From positions 1 through 40,014 of the forward strand of contig JAEERC010000034.1 of the NCBI GenBank assembly GCA_016285645.1: 40,014 nucleotides of DNA. Reading direction: 5' to 3'. The DNA comes from Clostridiaceae bacterium (GTDB lineage: Bacteria > Bacillota > Clostridia > Oscillospirales > Acutalibacteraceae). Of this stretch, positions 23,892 to 39,410 are shown in pieces. How positions within the stretch are numbered: the first letter of the stretch is position 1; each line of letters opens with the position of its first letter. The notes beneath the pieces were generated by a model. That model ran no database searches, had not been told where the DNA came from, and saw only the letters and a list, made by a program, of their open reading frames with translations. Position numbers and translations under genes: made by a program.

Positions 23892-24725
23892 TTGTCTTAT
23901 GGAAAAACCTCTCCGTTTGTAAAATGGGCTGGCGGTAAAACTCAGCTTTTAGAACAATTAAAGTTTAGATTACCCGATTCATATGATACATTTTATGAGC
24001 CGTTTATCGGCGGTGGAGCGTTTCTTTTTAGTATTCAGCCGCCAAAAGCAATTATTAATGACAGCAACGAACAGTTGATTAATGCGTTTAAACAATTAAA
24101 ATATAATACAGATTCTGTTATTAATATTGTAAAAGATTTTAATTCAAGAACTTGCGACAAAGATTACTATCTTAAATTAAGAGAACAATATAATAAAAAA
24201 ATCGCCTCGAATGAACTTGATGCCGAGTGTGCCGCTTTAATGATATGGATAAACAAACACTGTTTTAATGGCTTGTATAGAGTAAATTCAAAAGGTTTAT
24301 TTAATGTTCCTTATAATAATTCAGCAACAGCAAAAACAATCAGTGAAGAAAATCTTATAAATATCGGTCGATATTTAACGGAAAATGATGTTAAAATTCG
24401 TCTGGGTGATTTTGAAGCGGCTTGTTTTGATTGTTCAAAAAATGATTTTGTGTATTTAGATTCCCCTTATATTCCTGTGAGCAAGACGGCATATTTTACC
24501 GACTATACAAAAGACGGTTTTACTTATGAAGACCACAAACGACTTAGTGAATTGTTCCGGAATTTAGATAAAAAAGGCATTAAAGTAATGCTCAGCAATA
24601 ACGATGTTCCGCTTGTTTATGAACTGTATGACGGATTTAATATTGAGAATGTTGATGTTAGAAGAAATATAAACAGCAACGCAAAAAAACGAACAGGAAA
24701 AGAAGTTATTATAACGAATTATTAA
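23892..24725 (+). CDS. dpnM: DpnM-like N6-adenine DNA methyltransferase (Dam family, GATC)
   Basis: A 277-residue alpha-class (D12/Dam) adenine methyltransferase that should methylate GATC in double-stranded DNA. The SAM-binding motif is FVKWAGGK (9-16) and the second glycine-rich patch is EPFIGGGAF (36-44). The catalytic motif IV reads DSPY (190-193), not the usual DPPY. A one-base change (TCC for CCC) would account for it, and activity needs checking. The TTG start is chosen because GGAGGTGA lies seven bases upstream and no in-frame ATG is near. The coding sequence is AT-rich, unlike the aromatic operon. dpnA follows after one base. Confidence 0.88.
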   Translation: MSYGKTSPFVKWAGGKTQLLEQLKFRLPDSYDTFYEPFIGGGAFLFSIQPPKAIINDSNEQLINAFKQLKYNTDSVINIVKDFNSRTCDKDYYLKLREQYNKKIASNELDAECAALMIWINKHCFNGLYRVNSKGLFNVPYNNSATAKTISEENLINIGRYLTENDVKIRLGDFEAACFDCSKNDFVYLDSPYIPVSKTAYFTDYTKDGFTYEDHKRLSELFRNLDKKGIKVMLSNNDVPLVYELYDGFNIENVDVRRNINSNAKKRTGKEVIITNY

Positions 24726-24726
24726 T

Positions 24727-25551
24727 ATGGGAAAGTATTTTAAAGGTAAAAAAGCATATTATTATGACAGCACCTCCGCGTTGTTTTTGTCAGATGTTTT
24801 TGAAGCATTAGAAAAAATGACACCGGAATGCGTTGATATGATATTTGCAGACCCGCCATACTTTCTTTCAAATGACGGCATAACCTGTAGTGGTGGGAAA
24901 GCCGTATCTGTAAATAAAGGTGATTGGGATAAGATTTCATCTTTTGAAGAAAAGCACGCATTTAACAGACGGTGGATACATGAATGTAAAAGAGTCTTAA
25001 AGCCAAATGGTTCTATTTGGATAAGCGGAACTCTTCACAACATTTATTCTATCGGTATGGCATTGGAGCAGGAAGGGTTTAAAATAATAAACAACATCAC
25101 TTGGCAAAAAACAAATCCTCCTCCGAATCTTGCGTGTCGTTGTTTTACACACAGCACAGAAACCATTATCTGGGCACAAAAGAACGATAAAAAATCCCGC
25201 CACTATTTTAATTATGAATTAATGAAAGAACTTAACGGCGGAAAGCAAATGAAAGATGTTTGGACTGGAATGTTAACTCCGCGCCGGGAAAAAATATTCG
25301 GCAAACATCCTACGCAGAAACCCGTTTACCTCCTTGAAAAAATAATACAAGCTTCAACAAAAGAAAAAGATATTGTACTTGACCCGTTCTGCGGTTCTTC
25401 AACAACCGGAGTTGCGTGTAAAAAACTGGGAAGATACTATATAGGAATTGACAACTGTGAAGAGTACCTTCAACTGTCAATTAAAAGATTACAAAGTATA
25501 AAAACTAAAGAAGTGGAAGGTATAAAATATGTCATTGAGGAATTTTTCTGA
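24727..25551 (+). CDS. dpnA: DpnA-like N6-adenine DNA methyltransferase (beta class)
   Basis: A 274-residue second methyltransferase of the DpnII system. The catalytic motif DPPY (42-45) comes before the SAM motif DPFCGSSTTG (219-228), the permuted order of the beta class. In the pneumococcal system DpnA can also methylate single-stranded GATC DNA, protecting incoming plasmid strands; that role is inferred by homology. The last 23 bases overlap the endonuclease gene. It is AT-rich like its neighbours. Confidence 0.9.
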   Translation: MGKYFKGKKAYYYDSTSALFLSDVFEALEKMTPECVDMIFADPPYFLSNDGITCSGGKAVSVNKGDWDKISSFEEKHAFNRRWIHECKRVLKPNGSIWISGTLHNIYSIGMALEQEGFKIINNITWQKTNPPPNLACRCFTHSTETIIWAQKNDKKSRHYFNYELMKELNGGKQMKDVWTGMLTPRREKIFGKHPTQKPVYLLEKIIQASTKEKDIVLDPFCGSSTTGVACKKLGRYYIGIDNCEEYLQLSIKRLQSIKTKEVEGIKYVIEEFF

Positions 25552-26380
25552 TTGGCTTAATACATTTAGGGCTTCTATTAACGGTTACGGTTATTACACT
25601 GATTTTGAAAAAGTCTATGAAAACGCAAACTCATTAAAAATCGAAATAAGCATTCTCAGTTCACTTATCGGTTCAAAGAATATTGAAAAAGACTTTGAGG
25701 ATTTGTTAGAAAAATACCCTTCTTGTTTGAAAGCGATACCTATTTTATTAGCAGTAAGAGAAAACGAAATATACTGTCAGGATTCAAACGGCGCGATTAA
25801 TTACAACTTTGCTCGAAAGGTTCAGACTGTTGAGCAATACAAATATTTTATGCGCGCCACAGGTCTGTTTGATATGCTTGAAAACCATTTGATAAGCAAC
25901 TTGTTTGATTATGTAACAGGAGTTGAAGTCGGTTTAGGTTCAAACGGGAGAAAAAACCGCGGCGGTCATCAAATGGAAGATCTTGTTGAAAGTTATCTTA
26001 AAAAAGCCAGAGTTGAATATTATAAAGAAATGTATCTCACTGAAATTGAAAGCAAATGGGCTGTTGACCTGTCAGCAATTTCGGCGGAGGGCACTTCAAC
26101 AAAGCGCTGGGATTTTGTAGTTAAAACAAGCAATCATATCTATGTTATAGAAACAAACTTTTACACTAGCGGCGGTTCGAAACTAAACGAAACTTCAAGA
26201 AGTTATAAAATGATTGCCGAAGAATCAAAATCAATAAACGGATTCTCGTTCGTTTGGATAACGGACGGTGGCGGTTGGGTTAGTGCTCGGCGCAATCTTG
26301 AAGAGACCTTTAATGTGTTAGAGAATATCTATAATATTACCGATATGGAAAACGGCATTTTTACCACATTGTTTGTTTAA
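25529..26380 (+). CDS. dpnB: DpnII-like type II restriction endonuclease (GATC)
   Basis: A 283-residue endonuclease expected to cut unmethylated GATC. The C-terminal half holds the recognisable DpnII/MboI-type core: RWDFVV with Asp195, then IETN with Glu208 and Asn210 as a PD-(D/E)xK-like site, followed by FYTSGGSKLNE. The N-terminal half (about 1-140) is less conserved. GGAAGG precedes the ATG, inside dpnA. The order two methyltransferases then nuclease matches the dpnM-dpnA-dpnB cassette and would allow protection before cutting. A terminator follows. Confidence 0.92.
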   Translation: MSLRNFSDWLNTFRASINGYGYYTDFEKVYENANSLKIEISILSSLIGSKNIEKDFEDLLEKYPSCLKAIPILLAVRENEIYCQDSNGAINYNFARKVQTVEQYKYFMRATGLFDMLENHLISNLFDYVTGVEVGLGSNGRKNRGGHQMEDLVESYLKKARVEYYKEMYLTEIESKWAVDLSAISAEGTSTKRWDFVVKTSNHIYVIETNFYTSGGSKLNETSRSYKMIAEESKSINGFSFVWITDGGGWVSARRNLEETFNVLENIYNITDMENGIFTTLFV

Positions 26381-32130: not shown

Positions 32131-33327
32131 TTACTTGAAATTCGGTATAAATGTCATAACGAGAGTCGTTCTGTTCTGCGAGAACGAGAGGTCGGAATGC
32201 GAAAAGCTCAAAGAGCAGTATTTGTCCGCCGAGGTGATAACATCATATATCGCGTATTCCTCTATAAGTGTGCGGTAGCCGGCGGAATAAGCCGTCATAT
32301 CGCTGAAGCGCAGTTCAATCGCCGTGTTGCCGGAGTCGAGCTCCTTCGCTATCGCGCGGGCAAGCTCCTCGTTGTTGGCGACGGAGTAGGATGTGAAATA
32401 AAAGCCCGCTTTATACGAATAACTCTGCGTGACCGAGGTGCAGTCGTAATCAAAACTCCAGTTGCTGTGGTCGCAGTTTATCTGCCTGTCGCTGAGATTA
32501 AAATACTCATAGGTTTTGTAATTGCCGTTTACGGGGTCGTCCCAGGTTAAGTCGAGATGGCAGTAACAGCCGTTTATTTTAACGACATTCCACATATGCG
32601 AGTCGGTGTCGCCGTCGGTGTCGGTCGCCTTGCCCGCGAGCACATAGGACTCTATGCCGAGATAATCGAGAATATATTTCATCGCCTTGGAATAGCCCTC
32701 GCAGGAGGCGGTGCCGTCCGCGAGCGCGCCGTAAATTGTTGAGAGATTGCTCTCGTCATCGGTGTAGTCGTAGCCGAGTTTTGCCGCGAGCGCGTCGTGC
32801 ACCTGTTTTTCCGTTTTCCATTCGTCGGAACGGTCGGTCACATTTGACAATATCTCGTCGCGGGTGTTCTCGATTTTTTTGAGCGCCGGCTTGTAATCGC
32901 TTTTCGAAACGCGGTAGTCGAGCGACAGAAGCCCCGTTCCGCCTATGCTTGACAGCGTGCAGTGCGAGCCGAGAAAGAACAGGTCGGGGTTGTCGTAGAG
33001 AAGCGCCTGAAACATCTCGTTGAGCTCGTCCTGATTGAGGGCGGGCACCTTCACCGTTGAGGGGAAGGAATAGACCTTCGCGAGCACATTATCGTACGCT
33101 TTTTTCTCATCATTGTTCAATTTGTAATAGTAATATTTATACGGGCTTCCCGCGGACTGTGAAGCGGCTTCGGACACCTCTGAGGAGTCCTCACCGCTGT
33201 CGGACAGCGCCTGCTGAACCTTTGTGACCGCCTCGGGAATGCTCACCGTATCCGACTCGCCGAGGAGCTTGAAAACTACGCCGAGCACGATAACGGCGAT
33301 AACCGCCGCCAGAACTTTCTTTTTCAT
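32131..33327 (-). CDS. Membrane-anchored transglutaminase-like protein
   Basis: A 398-residue protein with an N-terminal signal anchor (about 4-20), a Ser/Glu-rich stalk (about 40-60) and a transglutaminase-like cysteine protease core. The probable triad is Cys209 ([10 protein letters not shown]), His244 (SHMWNVV) and Asp259 (HLDLTWDD). Such domains in clostridia usually sit outside the cell and act as proteases or amide-forming enzymes; the substrate is unknown. The C-terminal 120 residues are unassigned. It lies four bases after the LCP-like gene and ten bases before folE. Confidence 0.8.
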
Positions 33328-33331
33328 AGAA

Positions 33332-34213
33332 TCAACCGTTTATGTATTCTTCCGCCGACGCGGCGGTTCTGTATTTTATGCTGCCGTTCATCATAACCTG
33401 AATTGTGGGCGACACGCCCGAGAACTCGACGATTGTAAGGTCCGTTTCCACAAGGTTCGCGAGTGTGGAATAGCGGGAAATGAGATCGTCGGAATTTTCC
33501 GGCACGAACGCCTGCGAGAGAATCAGTTTTATTATCTTCGTCTGCTCGCGGTAGCCGTGAAGCGTGTTTGTAAGCGGCAGCGCGCGGATGTATTTGAGCA
33601 GCATATCGCCGTTCATATTCTGTATGCCCTCGGCGAGAATAAGAGTGAAATCGCCCTTGTAGCTCAGGGCGGGGCTTACCGTTACGCTGTAGGGACCGTA
33701 TCTGTCGGCGATAACCCTGAACGAGGTTTCGTCAAAATAGATGTATTTGTCAAAGGTGACTCCCGTCGCGGCGAAAACGGCGTCCCTCATGGAACTTATG
33801 CCCTGCTCGAAAAACGCCTTTTCAACGGTTGTCTGCGCGCCGTTCAGATCTATCGGGCTTTCGGGTGAGAAAGAATAGACGCTCACTTCGCTTTCGGGCA
33901 TTTTTATATTGAAAAGCGAGATGAAATCCATTTTCTGATTCTCTTTGGATATACAGAACACAAGAATCTGCGAGTTGAGTTTTTCAACCTTGTCGTAGGG
34001 GAGGGGCGCCGTGGTCTCCTCCTCTTCCTGCTTTCTGCCCGCGCCGAACGCGCCCGAGATATTGTAGTTGTAATTTCTCAGGAAAATAAGAACGGACACG
34101 CTGCCTCCGATTAAGAGGGCGGCTATGAGGATAATCGTAAAGCGCCTCATCGGGTGCCCTCTGAGTTTTTTGCGGGGGCGGAAATCTATTGGCTGAAGTT
34201 TGTTTTCTTTCAT
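33332..34213 (-). CDS. LytR-CpsA-Psr (LCP)-like membrane protein, degenerate
   Basis: A 293-residue protein with a basic cytoplasmic tail, one membrane helix (about 24-45), a Glu/Thr linker and an extracellular domain. The overall strand order and late motifs (KYIRAL at 207-212, GYREQTKII at 220-228) resemble the LCP family, which attaches polymers to peptidoglycan. The usual SIPRD segment reads YSFSPES (113-119), so the phosphate-binding Arg there is absent. It may be a non-enzymatic LCP relative; the family call itself is tentative. It is part of the rpe-to-folK run, with GGAGC before the ATG. Confidence 0.5.
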   Translation of the reverse strand: MKENKLQPIDFRPRKKLRGHPMRRFTIILIAALLIGGSVSVLIFLRNYNYNISGAFGAGRKQEEEETTAPLPYDKVEKLNSQILVFCISKENQKMDFISLFNIKMPESEVSVYSFSPESPIDLNGAQTTVEKAFFEQGISSMRDAVFAATGVTFDKYIYFDETSFRVIADRYGPYSVTVSPALSYKGDFTLILAEGIQNMNGDMLLKYIRALPLTNTLHGYREQTKIIKLILSQAFVPENSDDLISRYSTLANLVETDLTIVEFSGVSPTIQVMMNGSIKYRTAASAEEYING

Positions 34214-34228: not shown

Positions 34229-34450
34229 TTATCCCACGGGCAGTTCCGTTATGTTGAGAAGCGTTTCGGTAACGAAATAGCCGATTGTGATAAGCAAAAC
34301 TGTGATGAATACCGTGAATACCGCGGTCAGTATTTTTCTGCGCTTTCTGCGCATTTCATATTCTCTGCCCGAGCCGAAGGAGTCCGAGAATCCGGTTATG
34401 CTCTCCCTTTCGGAGGGGGACAGAGCGCGTTTAATCGTCTTTTTCTTCAT
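34229..34450 (-). CDS. Small single-helix membrane protein of unknown function
   Basis: A 73-residue protein with a charged N-terminal half (Lys/Arg/Glu/Ser rich, 1-40) and one hydrophobic helix (about 40-61), ending in a short external tail. It has AAGGAGG just before the ATG and is set nine bases after rnfA and 15 bases before the LCP-like gene, so it is very likely translated. No family is recognised. The RRKRRK stretch before the helix predicts the N-terminus stays inside. Confidence 0.7.
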   Translation of the reverse strand: MKKKTIKRALSPSERESITGFSDSFGSGREYEMRRKRRKILTAVFTVFITVLLITIGYFVTETLLNITELPVG

Positions 34451-34459
34451 AGCGCCTCC

Positions 34460-35053
34460 TTATGAGAAAACCGAATTGCCCGAAAACGCCGCGAATCCGA
34501 GCGAGAGAAGACTTATGTAAAGGAAGGTGACGGGGGTGCCCCTGAACACCTGCGGAATCTCCTTGTTTTCGGAGAGTTTGTGCACTCCCGCGGCTAAAAG
34601 AGCAGCCGCCACAACAAAGGCGACGCCCGCGCCGAGACCGGAACCGAGACTCGCGGGGAAGGAGTAGGCGCTTCTGCGGTTTATGAAGGGAATCGCCAGA
34701 ACGAGGGTGTTGAGAGCGGCGATGCCGAGATTTGTAAGGAAGTGGTCGCTCGCGCGGAAAATCACCTTGAGGATAATCGCCGCAACAAGATATACTCCCG
34801 CGAGAACCGCGGCATATACAAGCGCGTGCATGGAATCCGTAAGGGCGCTCACGCGGGGCAGACGGTCAAGCGGATGGCAGATTGCCGCCGTAACAACGGC
34901 AAAGCCCGAAATCATTACCGTAAACAGCCCGAAGGAGCGGGGCTTGAGCGAAACGCGCACGGCTTCGCTTGTGCCGTAGGCGAAGGAGAGAACGAGGTTC
35001 TGGAAAAACGCCGTATAGAGCGCCGTAATCATAAGATCGCCGAAAAGGTTCAT
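34460..35053 (-). CDS. RnfA/NqrE-like membrane subunit lacking the cluster cysteines
   Basis: A 197-residue six-helix protein of the RnfA/RnfE (NqrD/NqrE) family. The C-terminal PQVFRGTPVTFLYISLLSLGF matches the RnfA ending. In true RnfA, one Cys near the first helix (GLCP) and one in the TNCAV segment hold an intramembrane [2Fe-2S] cluster. Here those places read SFAYGTSE (23-30) and ALNTLVL (about 113-119), and the only Cys is Cys59 elsewhere. It starts within the rnfE-like stop codon (ATGA). It belongs to the Rnf fold, but an electron-transfer role is doubtful. Confidence 0.75.
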   Translation of the reverse strand: MNLFGDLMITALYTAFFQNLVLSFAYGTSEAVRVSLKPRSFGLFTVMISGFAVVTAAICHPLDRLPRVSALTDSMHALVYAAVLAGVYLVAAIILKVIFRASDHFLTNLGIAALNTLVLAIPFINRRSAYSFPASLGSGLGAGVAFVVAAALLAAGVHKLSENKEIPQVFRGTPVTFLYISLLSLGFAAFSGNSVFS

Positions 35054-36096
35054 TCATCTTCCCCCTTTCCGTCTTCGTCATCGTCAAACTCGAAATCCTC
35101 ACCGAAAATGTTTTCCGTGTGCGGCTCTTCCTCGGGCTTGAGCTCGACGGCGTCAAGGTCTTCGAAATTGAACGAGTCCTCAAGGGAGGTGAACATCTCC
35201 TCAACTCTCTGTTCCGTTTCCCTGTTGAACTGCTCGTGTTCTTTGCTCATGTTTTCCATATCGCTGACGACTTCCTGAGCGTCAACCTCGCCGGGAAGCC
35301 AGAATTCGGTGAATATTTCAAGTTCCTCCGGCTCGTTGCCGAAGAGGAATTCCATTTCGGTTATGCCTTCCTCCTGCGGTTCATCGGGTTCGGAAGAGGC
35401 GGAATCGTCACTGCTTTCCTCGGGTTCGTAAATCTTGCCCTTGCGCAGACTTACCTTTGTGCGCCTTATGCGCATTGCCGTCTGCTCGTTGTATTCGGGG
35501 CGGTATTTGTTGATATACCATTTGAGCGCCATAGCGAGATAGCCGAGCACTATGAACGCGCCGAATGGCATGAGCAGACCGCTGAGTTTTACGGTTATGC
35601 CTATGTCAAGCCCCGCGAAAGTGCCGTTGCCGAGCACCTCGCGAATCATACCGAGAATCATCATAACCGCGCCGAAGCCGACACTCACCGCGAAGGCGTC
35701 CTCAACCGCCTTGCCCACGGAGTGCTTTACAGCGTACTGCTCGCAGTGAACCGAGGTTACCGAATTGAGCGCGAGCAGAGGAAGATACATCTGCATACGG
35801 GGGTTTAAGGATATGCCCGTGATTTCCGAGGCGCGAGCCACGGGATATATGACCGCCGAGCCGATTATGAGGTAAAACGCCACTCTCAGCCAGCGGGGGA
35901 TTTTTTTGAGAAGAAGACTCGCCGTGAAACAGCAGATGAGGGTGTCCGCCATAAACACAACCGAGAAAACGAGGGCGGTTATAACATCCGAGGATGCCGC
36001 CGCGACAAGGCACAATCCCGCGAGCTGTATGAGCACGGGGTTGAATATGACGGCGCCTTTCAGAACTGTTCCGCCGGAATTTTTATTCTCCGCCAT
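35050..36096 (-). CDS. RnfE/NqrD-like membrane subunit with long acidic C-terminal tail
   Basis: A 348-residue protein. Residues 1 to about 198 are a RnfE-type six-helix domain (NPVLIQLAGLC near 19-29, MIREVLGNGT near 150-159). The first cluster cysteine is kept (Cys29), but the second, normally in VNCAI, reads LNSVT (Ser112); a Cys118 lies six residues on. Residues about 199-348 are a cytoplasmic tail of about 150 residues, very rich in Glu and Asp, which standard RnfE lacks. The ATG at 36096 has AAGGAGG at good spacing and overlaps the rnfD-like stop; a GTG one codon earlier is possible. Confidence 0.75.
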   Translation of the reverse strand: MAENKNSGGTVLKGAVIFNPVLIQLAGLCLVAAASSDVITALVFSVVFMADTLICCFTASLLLKKIPRWLRVAFYLIIGSAVIYPVARASEITGISLNPRMQMYLPLLALNSVTSVHCEQYAVKHSVGKAVEDAFAVSVGFGAVMMILGMIREVLGNGTFAGLDIGITVKLSGLLMPFGAFIVLGYLAMALKWYINKYRPEYNEQTAMRIRRTKVSLRKGKIYEPEESSDDSASSEPDEPQEEGITEMEFLFGNEPEELEIFTEFWLPGEVDAQEVVSDMENMSKEHEQFNRETEQRVEEMFTSLEDSFNFEDLDAVELKPEEEPHTENIFGEDFEFDDDEDGKGEDE

Positions 36097-37058
36097 CACT
36101 GCGCCTCCTTTTTCTTTTTGTCGGGGCGCTTACGGGCGATTCTGTCAACGGCGTTGGATATAGCGGGCCAGGAGCAGTTCGCGATTATTACCGCGAAGCA
36201 CACGCTCTCCTCGTAAATGCCGTAATATCTGCTGACCATACACAGAACGCCTGCGTATATGCCGTAGAAAAGGGCTCTTGACGGCTGACGCGGACAGGTC
36301 GCGGGGTCGGTGATAAAGAATACCGCCGCGAAAAACAGCGAGCCGGAGCAGAGTTCAAGTATGAGCGACGCGAGAGCGCCGGTGTTAACTCTCGGGAAAA
36401 GGAGAGCCATAACCGAGCAGGCAACCATAAAGCCGAAGGTGCTTATAAACGAGCGGGGTCTGCGGATAAGTAAAAAGACAAGGCAGCCGAGGAGCACTAC
36501 CGCGCAGGTGCCGAGAGGCCCGGACACGCTGCCCGTGAGAATATCCGACACGCTTATCGGCTCAAGGTGCATTGACGAACTTTTCTGAAGCATGCCCGCA
36601 AGCGAGGTGCCGCTTACGAACTGACCCGTGGCTGTCGTGCCCGAGGTCGGAAAACTGAACACCTGCGAGGGGAAGCAGACCGTCACAAAGGCGAAGCCCG
36701 CGGCGGCAGGCACAACGGGCGAGGTCAGCGACCCGCCGAACGGGATTTTGACGACAAATATCGCGAACGCGCAGGCGAGGGCGGGCACATAGTAGGGCAC
36801 GGTCGCGGGAAGCATAAGCCCCACGGCAAGCCCCGTGAATATAGCGCACAGATCCCTGAGGAGTATTTTATTGTAGAAAAGCAGACCGCCTACGAGGTCG
36901 CAGAAAACCGCCGTTCCCACGCTCGCGAGCAATACAAGTACAGCCCTGTGCCCGCAGTAATAAACGGCGGGTATGCACAGAGCGATGAGCATAAGTATGC
37001 AGTCGGCGAAAAGTGATCTGTTTTTTTCAATCAGAGTTTTTTTGTTCTGTTCAGCCAA
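36096..37058 (-). CDS. RnfD/NqrB-like membrane subunit
   Basis: A 320-residue polytopic protein of the RnfD/NqrB family: KIPFGGSLTSPVVPAAAGFAF matches the KQLFGG-N-FNPA segment, and a late TDPATCP matches TDPVTAP. The covalent-FMN motif (S/T-G-A-T) is not intact. The nearest match is SGTSLAG (149-155), so flavin binding is uncertain. The start is TTG at 37058 with GGGAG eight bases upstream; the frame runs on upstream into rpe, but that part does not look like an Rnf N-terminus. It follows rpe by 28 bases and overlaps the rnfE-like gene. Confidence 0.75.
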   Translation of the reverse strand: MAEQNKKTLIEKNRSLFADCILMLIALCIPAVYYCGHRAVLVLLASVGTAVFCDLVGGLLFYNKILLRDLCAIFTGLAVGLMLPATVPYYVPALACAFAIFVVKIPFGGSLTSPVVPAAAGFAFVTVCFPSQVFSFPTSGTTATGQFVSGTSLAGMLQKSSSMHLEPISVSDILTGSVSGPLGTCAVVLLGCLVFLLIRRPRSFISTFGFMVACSVMALLFPRVNTGALASLILELCSGSLFFAAVFFITDPATCPRQPSRALFYGIYAGVLCMVSRYYGIYEESVCFAVIIANCSWPAISNAVDRIARKRPDKKKKEAQ

Positions 37059-37086: not shown

Positions 37087-37764
37087 TCAGCCGTTGAAGG
37101 CGTGACCGTCCGCGGCGGATAGTATATCGGCAATTGCCTTTGCCGGGTCGTCCGACTTGAAAACGGAGGAGCCCGCCACAAAAACATTCGCGCCCGCGTA
37201 AGCGCTTCTGGCGGCTGTGAGCGGATTGATTCCGCCGTCAACCTCTATGTCCGTATTAAGGTTTCTCTTTATGATTTCACGCCTGAGAGCCGTGATTTTC
37301 GGTTCGGCGCTCTCCATATATTTCTGCCCGCCGAAGCCCGGTTCGACTGTCATGACAAGCACCATGGCGAGTCTGTCGAGGTACGGGAAAACCGCATCCG
37401 CGGGAGTGGCGGGTTTTATCGAAACGCCCGCCCTGCATCCGCAGGAGATTATCTTTTCGATCGTTTCATCCGCGGGGGAGGCGCTTTCAATGTGAAAGGT
37501 GATTATATCCGCGCCCGCTTTCGCGAAATCCTCAATGTAGTCAAGCGGGTGCTCAATCATGAGATGCACATCGAACACGGCGTCCGTGAGAGGGCGGATT
37601 GACGAGATGACTCCCGCGCCGAACGAGATGTTGGGCACGAAACAGCCGTCCATAACATCGAGGTGAAGATACTCCGCCCCGCCCGCGCGCACTTTGACCG
37701 CTTCACTGCCGAGAGCGGAAAAATCCGCCGCGAGAACAGAGGGCGAAACAATGCTTCTGCTCAT
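37087..37764 (-). CDS. rpe: Ribulose-phosphate 3-epimerase
   Basis: Rpe interconverts ribulose 5-phosphate and xylulose 5-phosphate in the pentose phosphate pathway. The 225-residue TIM barrel has its metal and catalytic residues: His34 and Asp36 (LHLDVMDG), His67 (DVHLMI) and Asp176 (EVDGGIN), plus the phosphate loop VEPGFGGQ. It is the first gene of an 11-gene minus-strand run. GGAGAGG precedes the ATG at slightly long spacing. In many bacteria rpe follows prpC-prkC-rsgA; here those genes are not present. Confidence 0.95.
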   Translation of the reverse strand: MSRSIVSPSVLAADFSALGSEAVKVRAGGAEYLHLDVMDGCFVPNISFGAGVISSIRPLTDAVFDVHLMIEHPLDYIEDFAKAGADIITFHIESASPADETIEKIISCGCRAGVSIKPATPADAVFPYLDRLAMVLVMTVEPGFGGQKYMESAEPKITALRREIIKRNLNTDIEVDGGINPLTAARSAYAGANVFVAGSSVFKSDDPAKAIADILSAADGHAFNG

Positions 37765-37911: not shown

Positions 37912-37940
37912 TTGAAAAAAGAGCGCGTTTGGAATATAAT
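37912..37940 (+). promoter_or_regulatory. Promoter of the lipase gene
   Basis: TTGAAA (37912-37917), 17 bases, then TATAAT (37935-37940), 30 bases before the TTG start. Confidence 0.8.
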
Positions 37941-37970
37941 ATATCCATTGCAGACACGGAGGTGTTTTCG

Positions 37971-39410
37971 TTGAACAAAAAAGACGATGCCGCGAACAAA
38001 AAGAGCGGAAAAAATAAAAACAAAGACGAAGAAAAATTCGCGCCGTACGGTGAGGCGTACACTGAAGCGAAAGCCGAAAAGCCCGAACGGAAAAAACTGA
38101 GCGAGGGGCAGAAGGCGGCTCTCGCCATTGTCGCCTGTCTGCTTGTTGTGGCGATAATCGCGGGCTCGGTGCTTCACTTCACGGGCAAGGGCGTGCCGGG
38201 TATTTCAAAGGGCGGCGAAAACCGCACCGCTGCCGAAACGCAGAAAGAACTCGGTCCGTCCGGCTACGCCTTCGTTTTCGTGCACGGCGTGGGCGGCTGG
38301 GGCGACAGTTCCTCAATGAACGATGTCGGTCACTACTGGGGAGCCACCACGGGCGACCTCGCCCAATATATGCGCAACAAGGGCTATGAGGTCTGCGTGC
38401 CGACCGTAGGTCCGTATTCCTCCACCTGGGACAGAACCTGCGAACTCTACGCCCAGCTGACGGGCACAACCGTCGATTACGGCGAGGCGCACTCAAAGGA
38501 GCACAACCACGAGCGCTACGGCAGAAAATACGAAAAGCCCCTTGTTGAAAACTGGGGAAAGGATAAAAAGGTAAATCTTATAGGTCACTCCTTCGGCGGC
38601 GAAACGGTCAGAATGCTCGCTTCCCTGCTCGCCTACGGCGACGACGCGGAAAAGAAGGCGACGGGCGACGAGACCTCGCCCCTCTTCACGGGCGGCAAGG
38701 GCGACTGGGTGTTCAGCGTGACAACTCTCTCTTCACCCCACAACGGCTCGCAGCTTACCGAAATGGCTGAGGCGCTCGGCAGGCTGTTCGGGGTTGACAA
38801 CTCGGTCGATCTTATGGTGGCGATAGTTTACTCCGTGCTCGCCACATCGGGCATTGACGAAAACAAACTGAATCTTATGCTCGACCAGTTCGGCGTGGGC
38901 GAATACAAGAAGGTTCAGGACGCCCTCGACGCCTTCGTAAACGCAAACGACGACCACGCTTTTGCCGAACTCTCCCCCGACGGGGCGGCGGCGCTCAACA
39001 AGCGCATAAAGACGGTTGACGGAGTTTACTACTTCTCCTACGCCTACTCCACAACCAACAAAAACGAGTCAACGGGCTCATATTCACCGCAGAAAAAGAC
39101 TTTCGCCACTCTGTTTGTGCCCTCCTCTGCCATGTGCCGATACACCTGCACAACGCAGGGCGGAATCGAGATTGACGAAAAGTGGTTTGACAACGACGGA
39201 CTTGTCAGCGTTTACAGCGCGCAGTATCCGCGCAACGACAGCCACTGCGCTCTGCCCGCAAATCCCTCCGAAATAAAGACGGGCATCTGGAATGTCGCCC
39301 CGACACAGGACGGCGACCACGGCTCGCCCGTGGGGCTCGCGGAAGGCCCCGAGGCGGTGCACACCTTCTATGAAGGGCTTTTTGAGATGCTCGAAAAGGT
39401 TAACCGCTGA
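37971..39410 (+). CDS. Membrane-anchored lipase, family I.5-like
   Basis: A 479-residue alpha/beta-hydrolase. A lysine-rich cytoplasmic part (1-47) precedes one membrane helix (about 48-70) and the catalytic domain outside the cell. The oxyanion loop is FVHGVGGWG (103-111), the nucleophile Ser207 lies in GHSFGGE, and the segment VGPYSSTWDR-CELYAQL-GTTVDYG-AH is close to the thermophilic Bacillus/Staphylococcus family I.5 lipases. Its Asp and His partners and zinc-site residues probably lie in the C-terminal part. I chose the TTG at 37971 with GGAGGTG six bases upstream; a TTG 14 codons earlier lacks a ribosome binding site. No strong terminator is visible before the 5S promoter. Confidence 0.85.
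   Translation: MNKKDDAANKKSGKNKNKDEEKFAPYGEAYTEAKAEKPERKKLSEGQKAALAIVACLLVVAIIAGSVLHFTGKGVPGISKGGENRTAAETQKELGPSGYAFVFVHGVGGWGDSSSMNDVGHYWGATTGDLAQYMRNKGYEVCVPTVGPYSSTWDRTCELYAQLTGTTVDYGEAHSKEHNHERYGRKYEKPLVENWGKDKKVNLIGHSFGGETVRMLASLLAYGDDAEKKATGDETSPLFTGGKGDWVFSVTTLSSPHNGSQLTEMAEALGRLFGVDNSVDLMVAIVYSVLATSGIDENKLNLMLDQFGVGEYKKVQDALDAFVNANDDHAFAELSPDGAAALNKRIKTVDGVYYFSYAYSTTNKNESTGSYSPQKKTFATLFVPSSAMCRYTCTTQGGIEIDEKWFDNDGLVSVYSAQYPRNDSHCALPANPSEIKTGIWNVAPTQDGDHGSPVGLAEGPEAVHTFYEGLFEMLEKVNR

Follow-up and report, generated by a model that had tools for sequence, protein, structure and literature searches.

The window analysed here is a stretch of 40,014 nt from a gut-dwelling Clostridiaceae bacterium of the family Acutalibacteraceae (contig JAEERC010000034.1). 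The genome measures 2.6 Mb in 73 contigs, is 98 percent complete, and has the window as its contig 48. Its minus strand carries three adjoining genes for proteins related to RnfD, RnfE and RnfA, membrane subunits of the Rnf complex. Judged by sequence comparison, this D-E-A module has its ancestry in an rnf operon, its losses of partner subunits and of cofactor ligands are joint losses, its genes are under purifying selection, and it is widely conserved among relatives. With slightly less than even confidence, we favour the explanation that it is the membrane core of a second Rnf complex, which lost RnfB, RnfG, RnfC and most of the redox ligands within the membrane and was kept for a job that does not involve electrons.

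The RnfD-like protein (36096..37058, 320 amino acids) starts with TTG, preceded by GGAGA, and matches PF03116 (E 4.3e-53), with 7zc6_D as its best chain in the PDB (E 8.8e-26) and a weak match to PF14808 below the cut-off. The RnfE-like protein (35050..36099, 349 amino acids; PF02508, E 2.1e-24) consists of a membrane part and an acidic C-terminal tail of about 150 residues, in which 51 of 151 residues are Asp or Glu. The RnfA-like protein (34460..35053, 197 amino acids) matches PF02508 with E 1.3e-15. Both junctions, D/E and E/A, are formed by overlapping stop and start codons. These data bear out the first-pass annotation, which had described three consecutive, overlapping genes of the RnfD, RnfE and RnfA type. 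All three proteins exceed the Pfam cut-offs and fall far under the curated NCBIfam cut-offs (rnfD 125.7 of 207 bits, rnfE 73.7 of 213, rnfA 46.6 of 229). Their relatives of solved structure are the D, E and A chains of Rnf and the B, D and E chains of NQR. AlphaFold2 models were made for A (mean pLDDT 75) and E (mean pLDDT 76); the E model matches 9eri_E with a TMt of 0.83, and the A model matches 9eri_A, 7xk3_E and 8a1v_E with a TMt of 0.54–0.60.

RnfB, RnfC and RnfG were not seen in the run by inspection of open reading frames, Pfam scan or locus profiles, and D, E and A are the only rnf-type genes at the locus. The absence of these three genes had been noted before, together with a departure from the usual gene order; the latter needs refinement, as D-E-A is still collinear with C-D-G-E-A-B minus C, G and B. 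A search of the same genome for a full rnfCDGEAB found one, on contig 41. It has all four cluster cysteines and the flavin mononucleotide (FMN) motifs, and it adjoins apbE and a hepS-like gene, both named from their sequences.

For the cysteine columns, the A and E proteins of the window were aligned with the 29 A and 29 E sequences that best match the genome's canonical copy, a set that includes a few stripped outgroups. Three of the four cysteines that hold the [2Fe-2S] cluster are replaced. In A both are gone, with Ser29 and Thr116 in their columns, and in E the first is kept as Cys30 while the second is Ser113. The same residues had been reported by the first-pass annotation, with a numbering of E that is off by one (Cys29 and Ser112). 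The cysteine sites align without gaps around them, which rules out that the residues were missed through misalignment. We found no close homologues with the same sequence in standard rnfCDGEAB operons. The kink of A reads G-x-Ser-Glu-Ala-Val-Arg, with Ser29-Glu30 encoded at 34964-34969. E keeps Arg72 and Glu120, which correspond to A. woodii R67 and E115, and has a new His118-Cys119 pair. The FMN-attachment segment of D is GQFVSGTSLA, compared with VDAVTGATPLA in the genome's own canonical D, and by alignment columns the flavinylated Thr has become Ser. The attachment motif is not intact, as had been claimed, though the FMN Thr itself may survive. A further contact of D, with riboflavin, is changed from Asn (A. 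woodii N123) to Val, and the contact Asp (D249) is kept. The roles of these cofactor-contact residues, and those of the Na+ path, are as given in PMC11889175 and PMC9588780.

To place these losses, 153 loci with A or D were collected and 27 with identical A and D ends dropped, which left 126 non-redundant loci that were mapped by profiles. Loci of the order were picked partly for a DUF4015 (PF13200) gene next to the A match, so that the DUF4015 link is over-represented. Both B and G are present at 44 loci and both are absent at 78, here called stripped; four were set aside. Two of these four show no B, with the contig ending about 2.1 kb past A (L085) or the stretch ending less than 100 bases past A (L179). 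The other two hold C-D-B only (L090, genome G052) and C-D only (L093, G055:C18), both with a C that has no glycine-rich nicotinamide adenine dinucleotide (NAD) loop. The stripped loci comprise 53 from the window's genus and its sisters (D-E-A, no C), six of a group labelled f1C (C-D-E-A), 11 of family f25 (rpe-D-E-A-DUF4015), four of lineage f7 (C-D-E-A-DUF4015) and four others (L071, L081, L087 and L098, with L081 and L098 on separate contigs of the same genome).

All four cysteines are found at 41 of the 44 loci with B and G. The 73 stripped loci at which the four sites are readable have one cysteine (54 loci) or none (19), and never more than one. In canonical numbering, A keeps C26 in 0/75 and C114 in 8/77 stripped loci, and E keeps C29 in 46/74 and C112 in 0/74. 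As neither C26 of A nor C112 of E is kept in any readable locus without B and G, chance is excluded. The FMN pattern [ST]x[ASP]T[PTV]L is found in 33/41 complete D sequences and in 0/73 stripped ones. The strict ApbE-type motif Dxx[ST]xAT is likewise absent from all 73 stripped D sequences, but only 26 of the 41 complete ones have it. RnfC, where it occurs in stripped loci (12 cases), keeps its two 4Fe-4S motifs, but every one of the 12 has an altered glycine-rich NAD loop. The loop was scored by alignment, a pattern test having flagged many complete loci as devoid of it. At L148 no C lies beside D-E-A, and a weak C match (28 bits) is found 4 kb away.

Loci without B and G have thus also lost their cysteines, but three exceptions among the loci with B and G make this a loose association. 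L198 (G123), L201 (G096) and L074 (G054) are C, D, G, E, A operons without two or three of the four cluster cysteines; B is adjacent in L074 and L201, while the B match of L198 is weak and lies apart. Perhaps these three operons represent early stages of the same loss.

The module is not an oddity of one assembly, a possibility ruled out by its presence in genomes of the same genus and by a wider contig scan. Matches for D and A of the type seen in the window occur in 32/36 genomes of the genus. A scan of contigs with the A alignment yielded 51 loci, titled Clostridia, Clostridiales, Clostridiaceae, Oscillospiraceae or Ruminococcaceae bacteria; most are from metagenome-assembled genomes, many of ruminant gut origin. 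Among 292 genomes of the class there are eight matches at E 1e-30, all within the window's order. A scan of 395 genomes of the order at 1e-30 listed 73, but since the match of G038 and the better match of G058 are A proteins of the complete type, we used 1.3e-35 as the threshold. At this level or better 70 genomes have an A match, of which 25 belong to the window's family and 45 to f25; most of these were counted without a check of the locus, and loci of the f7 type fall outside the threshold.

Selection was assessed from the ratio of nonsynonymous to synonymous substitution rates (dN/dS). Between the window and three near relatives it is 0.12–0.13 for D, 0.18–0.20 for E and 0.06–0.09 for A, with dS near or above 1. 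dS is saturated in most pairs. In the least diverged pair of the genus (L060/L062, dS 0.11–0.16), D, E and A have ratios of 0.08, 0.10 and 0.06. For the f7 E, which has a long extension, the ratio is 0.37–0.44. The coding sequences of D, E and A thus show purifying selection. Long charged extensions of E occur in two stripped lineages, as the C-terminal acidic tail in the window (35053-35500) and at the N-terminus in f7 (L072 10857-12371).

A long branch with full support (SH-aLRT only) divides the tree between the rpe-linked stripped loci and those that are complete or of f7. Taken alone, the free quick trees would be compatible with one loss, as they put f7 outside the complete group (complete rows on one side of a branch with support 98.6). 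However, a tree that holds the f7 stripped loci together with the f7 complete loci has a log-likelihood that is 32 higher (AU p 0.855). The f7 stripped locus also occupies the position that a complete operon takes in a congener (L177, genome G097), with prmA upstream (70 percent identical) and the DUF4015 gene downstream (53 percent), which argues for an independent loss in f7. Its D is 63 percent identical to the L177 D and 34 percent to that of the window, and its E and A are 36 and 43 percent identical to the congener's complete copy. A single origin of the stripping was set aside on the likelihood of the constrained tree and on these flanks common within one genus. At least two losses, with that in f7 independent, are therefore well supported; the deep branches are long, and we claim no exact number. 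Two genomes of one genus have complete operons with rpe upstream and DUF4015 downstream (L076, L199), and the stripped rpe loci may thus have arisen from operons with this layout.

The module lies in a longer minus-strand run. Upstream of D is rpe, encoding ribulose-phosphate 3-epimerase (37087..37764; TIGR01163, E 2.3e-74). Directly after A follow genes for a small one-helix protein of 73 amino acids (34229..34450), an LCP-family-like protein (33332..34213; PF03816, E 4.6e-09) and a transglutaminase-like protein (32131..33327; PF01841, E 1.4e-06), the latter two being neighbours at the level of the genus, and then folE and folP, named from their own sequences without a library scan. The small, LCP-like and transglutaminase-like proteins are as described in the first-pass annotation. 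Most of the 51 loci share, as far as the contig reaches, the order rpe-D-E-A-small-(alpha-amylase)-LCP-transglutaminase-folE-folP; the alpha-amylase gene is absent in the window and its nearest kin.

The small protein is probably the retained N-terminal anchor of a membrane-anchored DUF4015 protein. At L115 (10628-11752), which shares its contig with L052, A is followed by a gene for 374 amino acids, with an N-terminal transmembrane segment followed by PF13200 (E 1.7e-26); it occupies the same place as the small protein of the window and has a similar N-terminus and transmembrane segment. A tblastn search of the L052 contig with the small protein gave a match of 31 percent. A DUF4015 gene was found at this place in L149, L072, L081 and L087, confirmed by Pfam, and in L145 with its twin L144 by our own profile, which found none in the f1C loci that bear C. 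The DUF4015 link is also seen in 15/41 complete loci, from a sample partly chosen for it, and so is not specific to the stripped form.

The rpe gene was found in 46/52 loci of the genus and its sisters, 7/7 of the f1C group, 11/11 of f25, 0/4 of f7 and 3/4 of the other stripped loci. LCP and transglutaminase genes are present in 43/52 and 40/52 loci of the genus and nearest kin, some being cut by contig ends, but in 0/11 of f25 and 0/7 of the f1C group, where the neighbour is rpe and, in f25, also the membrane-anchored DUF4015 protein. The series D-E-A-small-LCP-transglutaminase is thus conserved without B, C and G in the genus and nearest kin and not in the other stripped lineages, and the link to the cell envelope that had been proposed from it is weakly supported. 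At L058 (8462-9022), L149 and L181, rpe and D are separated by a mecA-like gene (PF05389) of opposite orientation; at L165, where no rpe was found, this gene lies before D. A gene in this position had been considered as a remnant of RnfC, which was rejected on its identification as mecA; the window has no gene between rpe and D. Elsewhere in the window we observed an island of low GC content (23892-26380; 0.34 in 24001-26000) with a D12 class adenine methyltransferase, a second DNA methylase and a DpnII restriction enzyme, and a divergent lipase-like gene (37929-39410; PF24708, with NF047351 below cut-off).

How might such a core work? RnfB is the electron entry, RnfG the extracytoplasmic shuttle and RnfC the exit, and all three are lost from the module. 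D, E and A would still assemble as in Rnf, while electron transfer across the membrane would no longer occur. Two features of the window's group, the kept Arg-Glu pair of E and the change of Cys-Pro to Ser-Glu in A, lead us to propose redox-free handling of ions. In Rnf, the route of Na+ past the [2Fe-2S] cluster is through the A/E pair; here this pair would most likely have become a redox-independent ion-conducting or ion-sensing unit, in which the Arg-Glu pair would take Na+ from the cytosol and Ser-Glu would put a fixed or protonatable negative charge near the place where the reduced cluster drew Na+. Among the readable loci of the genus and its sisters, the equivalents of R67 and E115 are each kept in 50/50, and A has the Ser and the Glu in 51/51 and the Arg in 50/51 (Ser-Glu-Ala-x-Arg, where complete A has Cys-Pro-Phe-x-Gly, the Glu taking the place of Pro27 in canonical numbering). 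The output may be at the cell surface, as a membrane-anchored DUF4015 protein is encoded by the next gene in several relatives, of which the window seems to have only the anchor left. In its fullest form, the proposal is that a redox-driven ion pump has repeatedly given rise to an ion carrier or channel that works without redox chemistry, with a carboxylate that mimics the reduced cluster in the window's lineage and an exported DUF4015 partner in several relatives; as a whole we regard this form as rather unlikely. The ion-carrying subunit of Rnf itself is disputed, being RnfD according to PMC9588780 and RnfA/E according to PMC11889175.

Several observations weigh against an electron-free core or against this mechanism for it. 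The Ser-Glu pair is limited to the window's group, the place of Glu being taken by Arg in f1C and mostly by Val or Thr in f25, and E115 is kept in only 1/6 f1C loci. A single mechanism built on a carboxylate therefore cannot account for all stripped loci, and the mechanism may differ in f1C, f25 and f7. The equivalents of RnfA E88, T110 and T111 (the two Thr lying near the cluster), part of the Na+ pathway, are mostly gone in the window's group. At the kink the A model has low confidence (pLDDT 48), and it draws helix IV unbroken. In D, the shorter pattern T-[PS]-[LFI] is present in 39/41 complete but also in 22/73 stripped sequences, that of the window included, and a shift of one residue between the unaligned segments would let the Thr of GTSL fill the place of the FMN Thr. 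Four genomes of the genus (G016, G018, G024, G032) have no module, two of them more than 90 percent complete, and five of the 74 rows of the order scan report a stop inside the match; two of these five (L166, L180) were fetched and have an A frame of normal length. Finally, the kept Cys30 of E and its new Cys119 hint at an unrecognised metal or redox site.

This last point leads to an alternative that we consider unlikely, a redox or metal complex of another kind, in which Cys30, His118 and Cys119 of E and cysteines of D, perhaps with FMN still on D, move electrons or hold a metal. In the window's group Cys119, which replaces Ala118 of canonical numbering, is found in 50/50 and His118 in 42/50 readable loci, in addition to Cys30 in 46/74 stripped loci; D has family-specific cysteines in 27–28 of 29 sequences; and the riboflavin-contact Asp is kept in 37/49 loci of the group, alongside the possible FMN Thr of the window. 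However, Cys119 adjoins the cytosolic-entry Glu, six residues past Ser113, and by the published structure would be unlikely to share a site with Cys30. Moreover, f25, f7, L071 and L087 keep neither cysteine, RnfG and RnfB are not at the locus, and the strict flavinylation motif is absent throughout the stripped D sequences, as it is from many complete ones.

It is also quite unlikely, in our judgement, that the module is a solute channel, in which RnfD, with the fold of urea and ammonium transporters, would pass a small solute once without flavins, and E and A would be accessory. The relation of RnfD to these transporters is described in PMC9588780 and PMC12174285, and in f7 it is D that has stayed most like the complete copy of the congener. 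On the other hand, RnfD is dry and not ion-conducting according to PMC11889175, and in the pairs that include the window, constraint is stronger on A than on D.

A third possibility is that D-E-A serves as an alternative core for the canonical Rnf, joining the B, C and G subunits that the complete operon encodes and acting as a regulator or decoy that is itself redox-dead. A survey of 66 genomes, several without the module, found RnfB above the cut-off in 57; below it were G009, G042, G065, G082, G096, G123, G124, G209 (66.9 of 68.7 bits) and G216. Five genomes, the four of f7 (G042, G065, G082, G124) and G216, have the stripped module as their only match to the A alignment and no RnfB over the cut-off. 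The equivalents of RnfA K32 and R154, said to face the RnfB cluster, are mostly gone as well. We hold this possibility to be improbable. That the module is the decaying remnant of a redundant operon, as graded losses in related lineages, the DUF4015 gene reduced to an anchor, the four genomes of the genus without it and the reported stops might suggest, is highly improbable given dN/dS well below 1 (albeit with dS saturated in most pairs), the joint occurrence of all three genes at the mapped stripped loci wherever the contig extends far enough, the 70 matches in the order and a second origin in f7.

We thus return to the electron-free core as the favoured reading. The proposal of a neofunctional and redox-inactive complex, made in the first-pass annotation, gains from the joint absence of B, G and the [2Fe-2S] cysteines (in the window also of C), the altered FMN motif, selection and more than one origin; it is tempered by the one cysteine and perhaps an FMN Thr that remain.

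Compared with the Rnf complex (RnfABCDGE; 9eri, 7zc6, 8ahx), D, E and A are homologous over nearly their full membrane parts, in collinear order, with a matching fold of E and a kept R67/E115 pair, whereas B, C and G, three of the four cluster cysteines and the intact FMN motif are missing, and relatives of the module that still have C have a changed NAD loop. With Na+-NQR (NqrABCDEF) the module has in common that it is an rnf duplicate minus rnfB, as PMC4014512 proposes for the origin of NQR; unlike the module, NQR kept the cysteine site and the flavins and gained NqrF (PMC9588780, PMC12174285 and PMC4014512). NqrA and NqrF had no match among the eight scanned proteins of the run, and no reductase was seen at the locus. 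The two-subunit NQR/RNF-like systems described in PMC8238504 and PMC10979944 are also a partial Rnf set with an RnfD-like protein that has no conserved FMN motif, but there RnfD is fused to an NAD-binding domain and paired with an RnfG-like flavoprotein in flavinylation (apbE) clusters. The module is instead D-E-A, with no flavin domain and no apbE at the locus, and the Pfam scan showed neither a PF00175 fusion of the window D nor an FMN-bind partner. Our literature searches found no description of a redox-stripped Rnf D-E-A core.

Taken together, the cluster ligands and the subunits for electron entry and shuttling have been removed and D, E and A kept under selection, apparently more than once. 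Stripped genes of this kind may pass for rnfD, rnfE and rnfA in annotation, and so be read as a sign of energy conservation. Should the stripped core move ions, the ion path of Rnf would be open to study without redox chemistry; should it move none, the Rnf core would have a second role.

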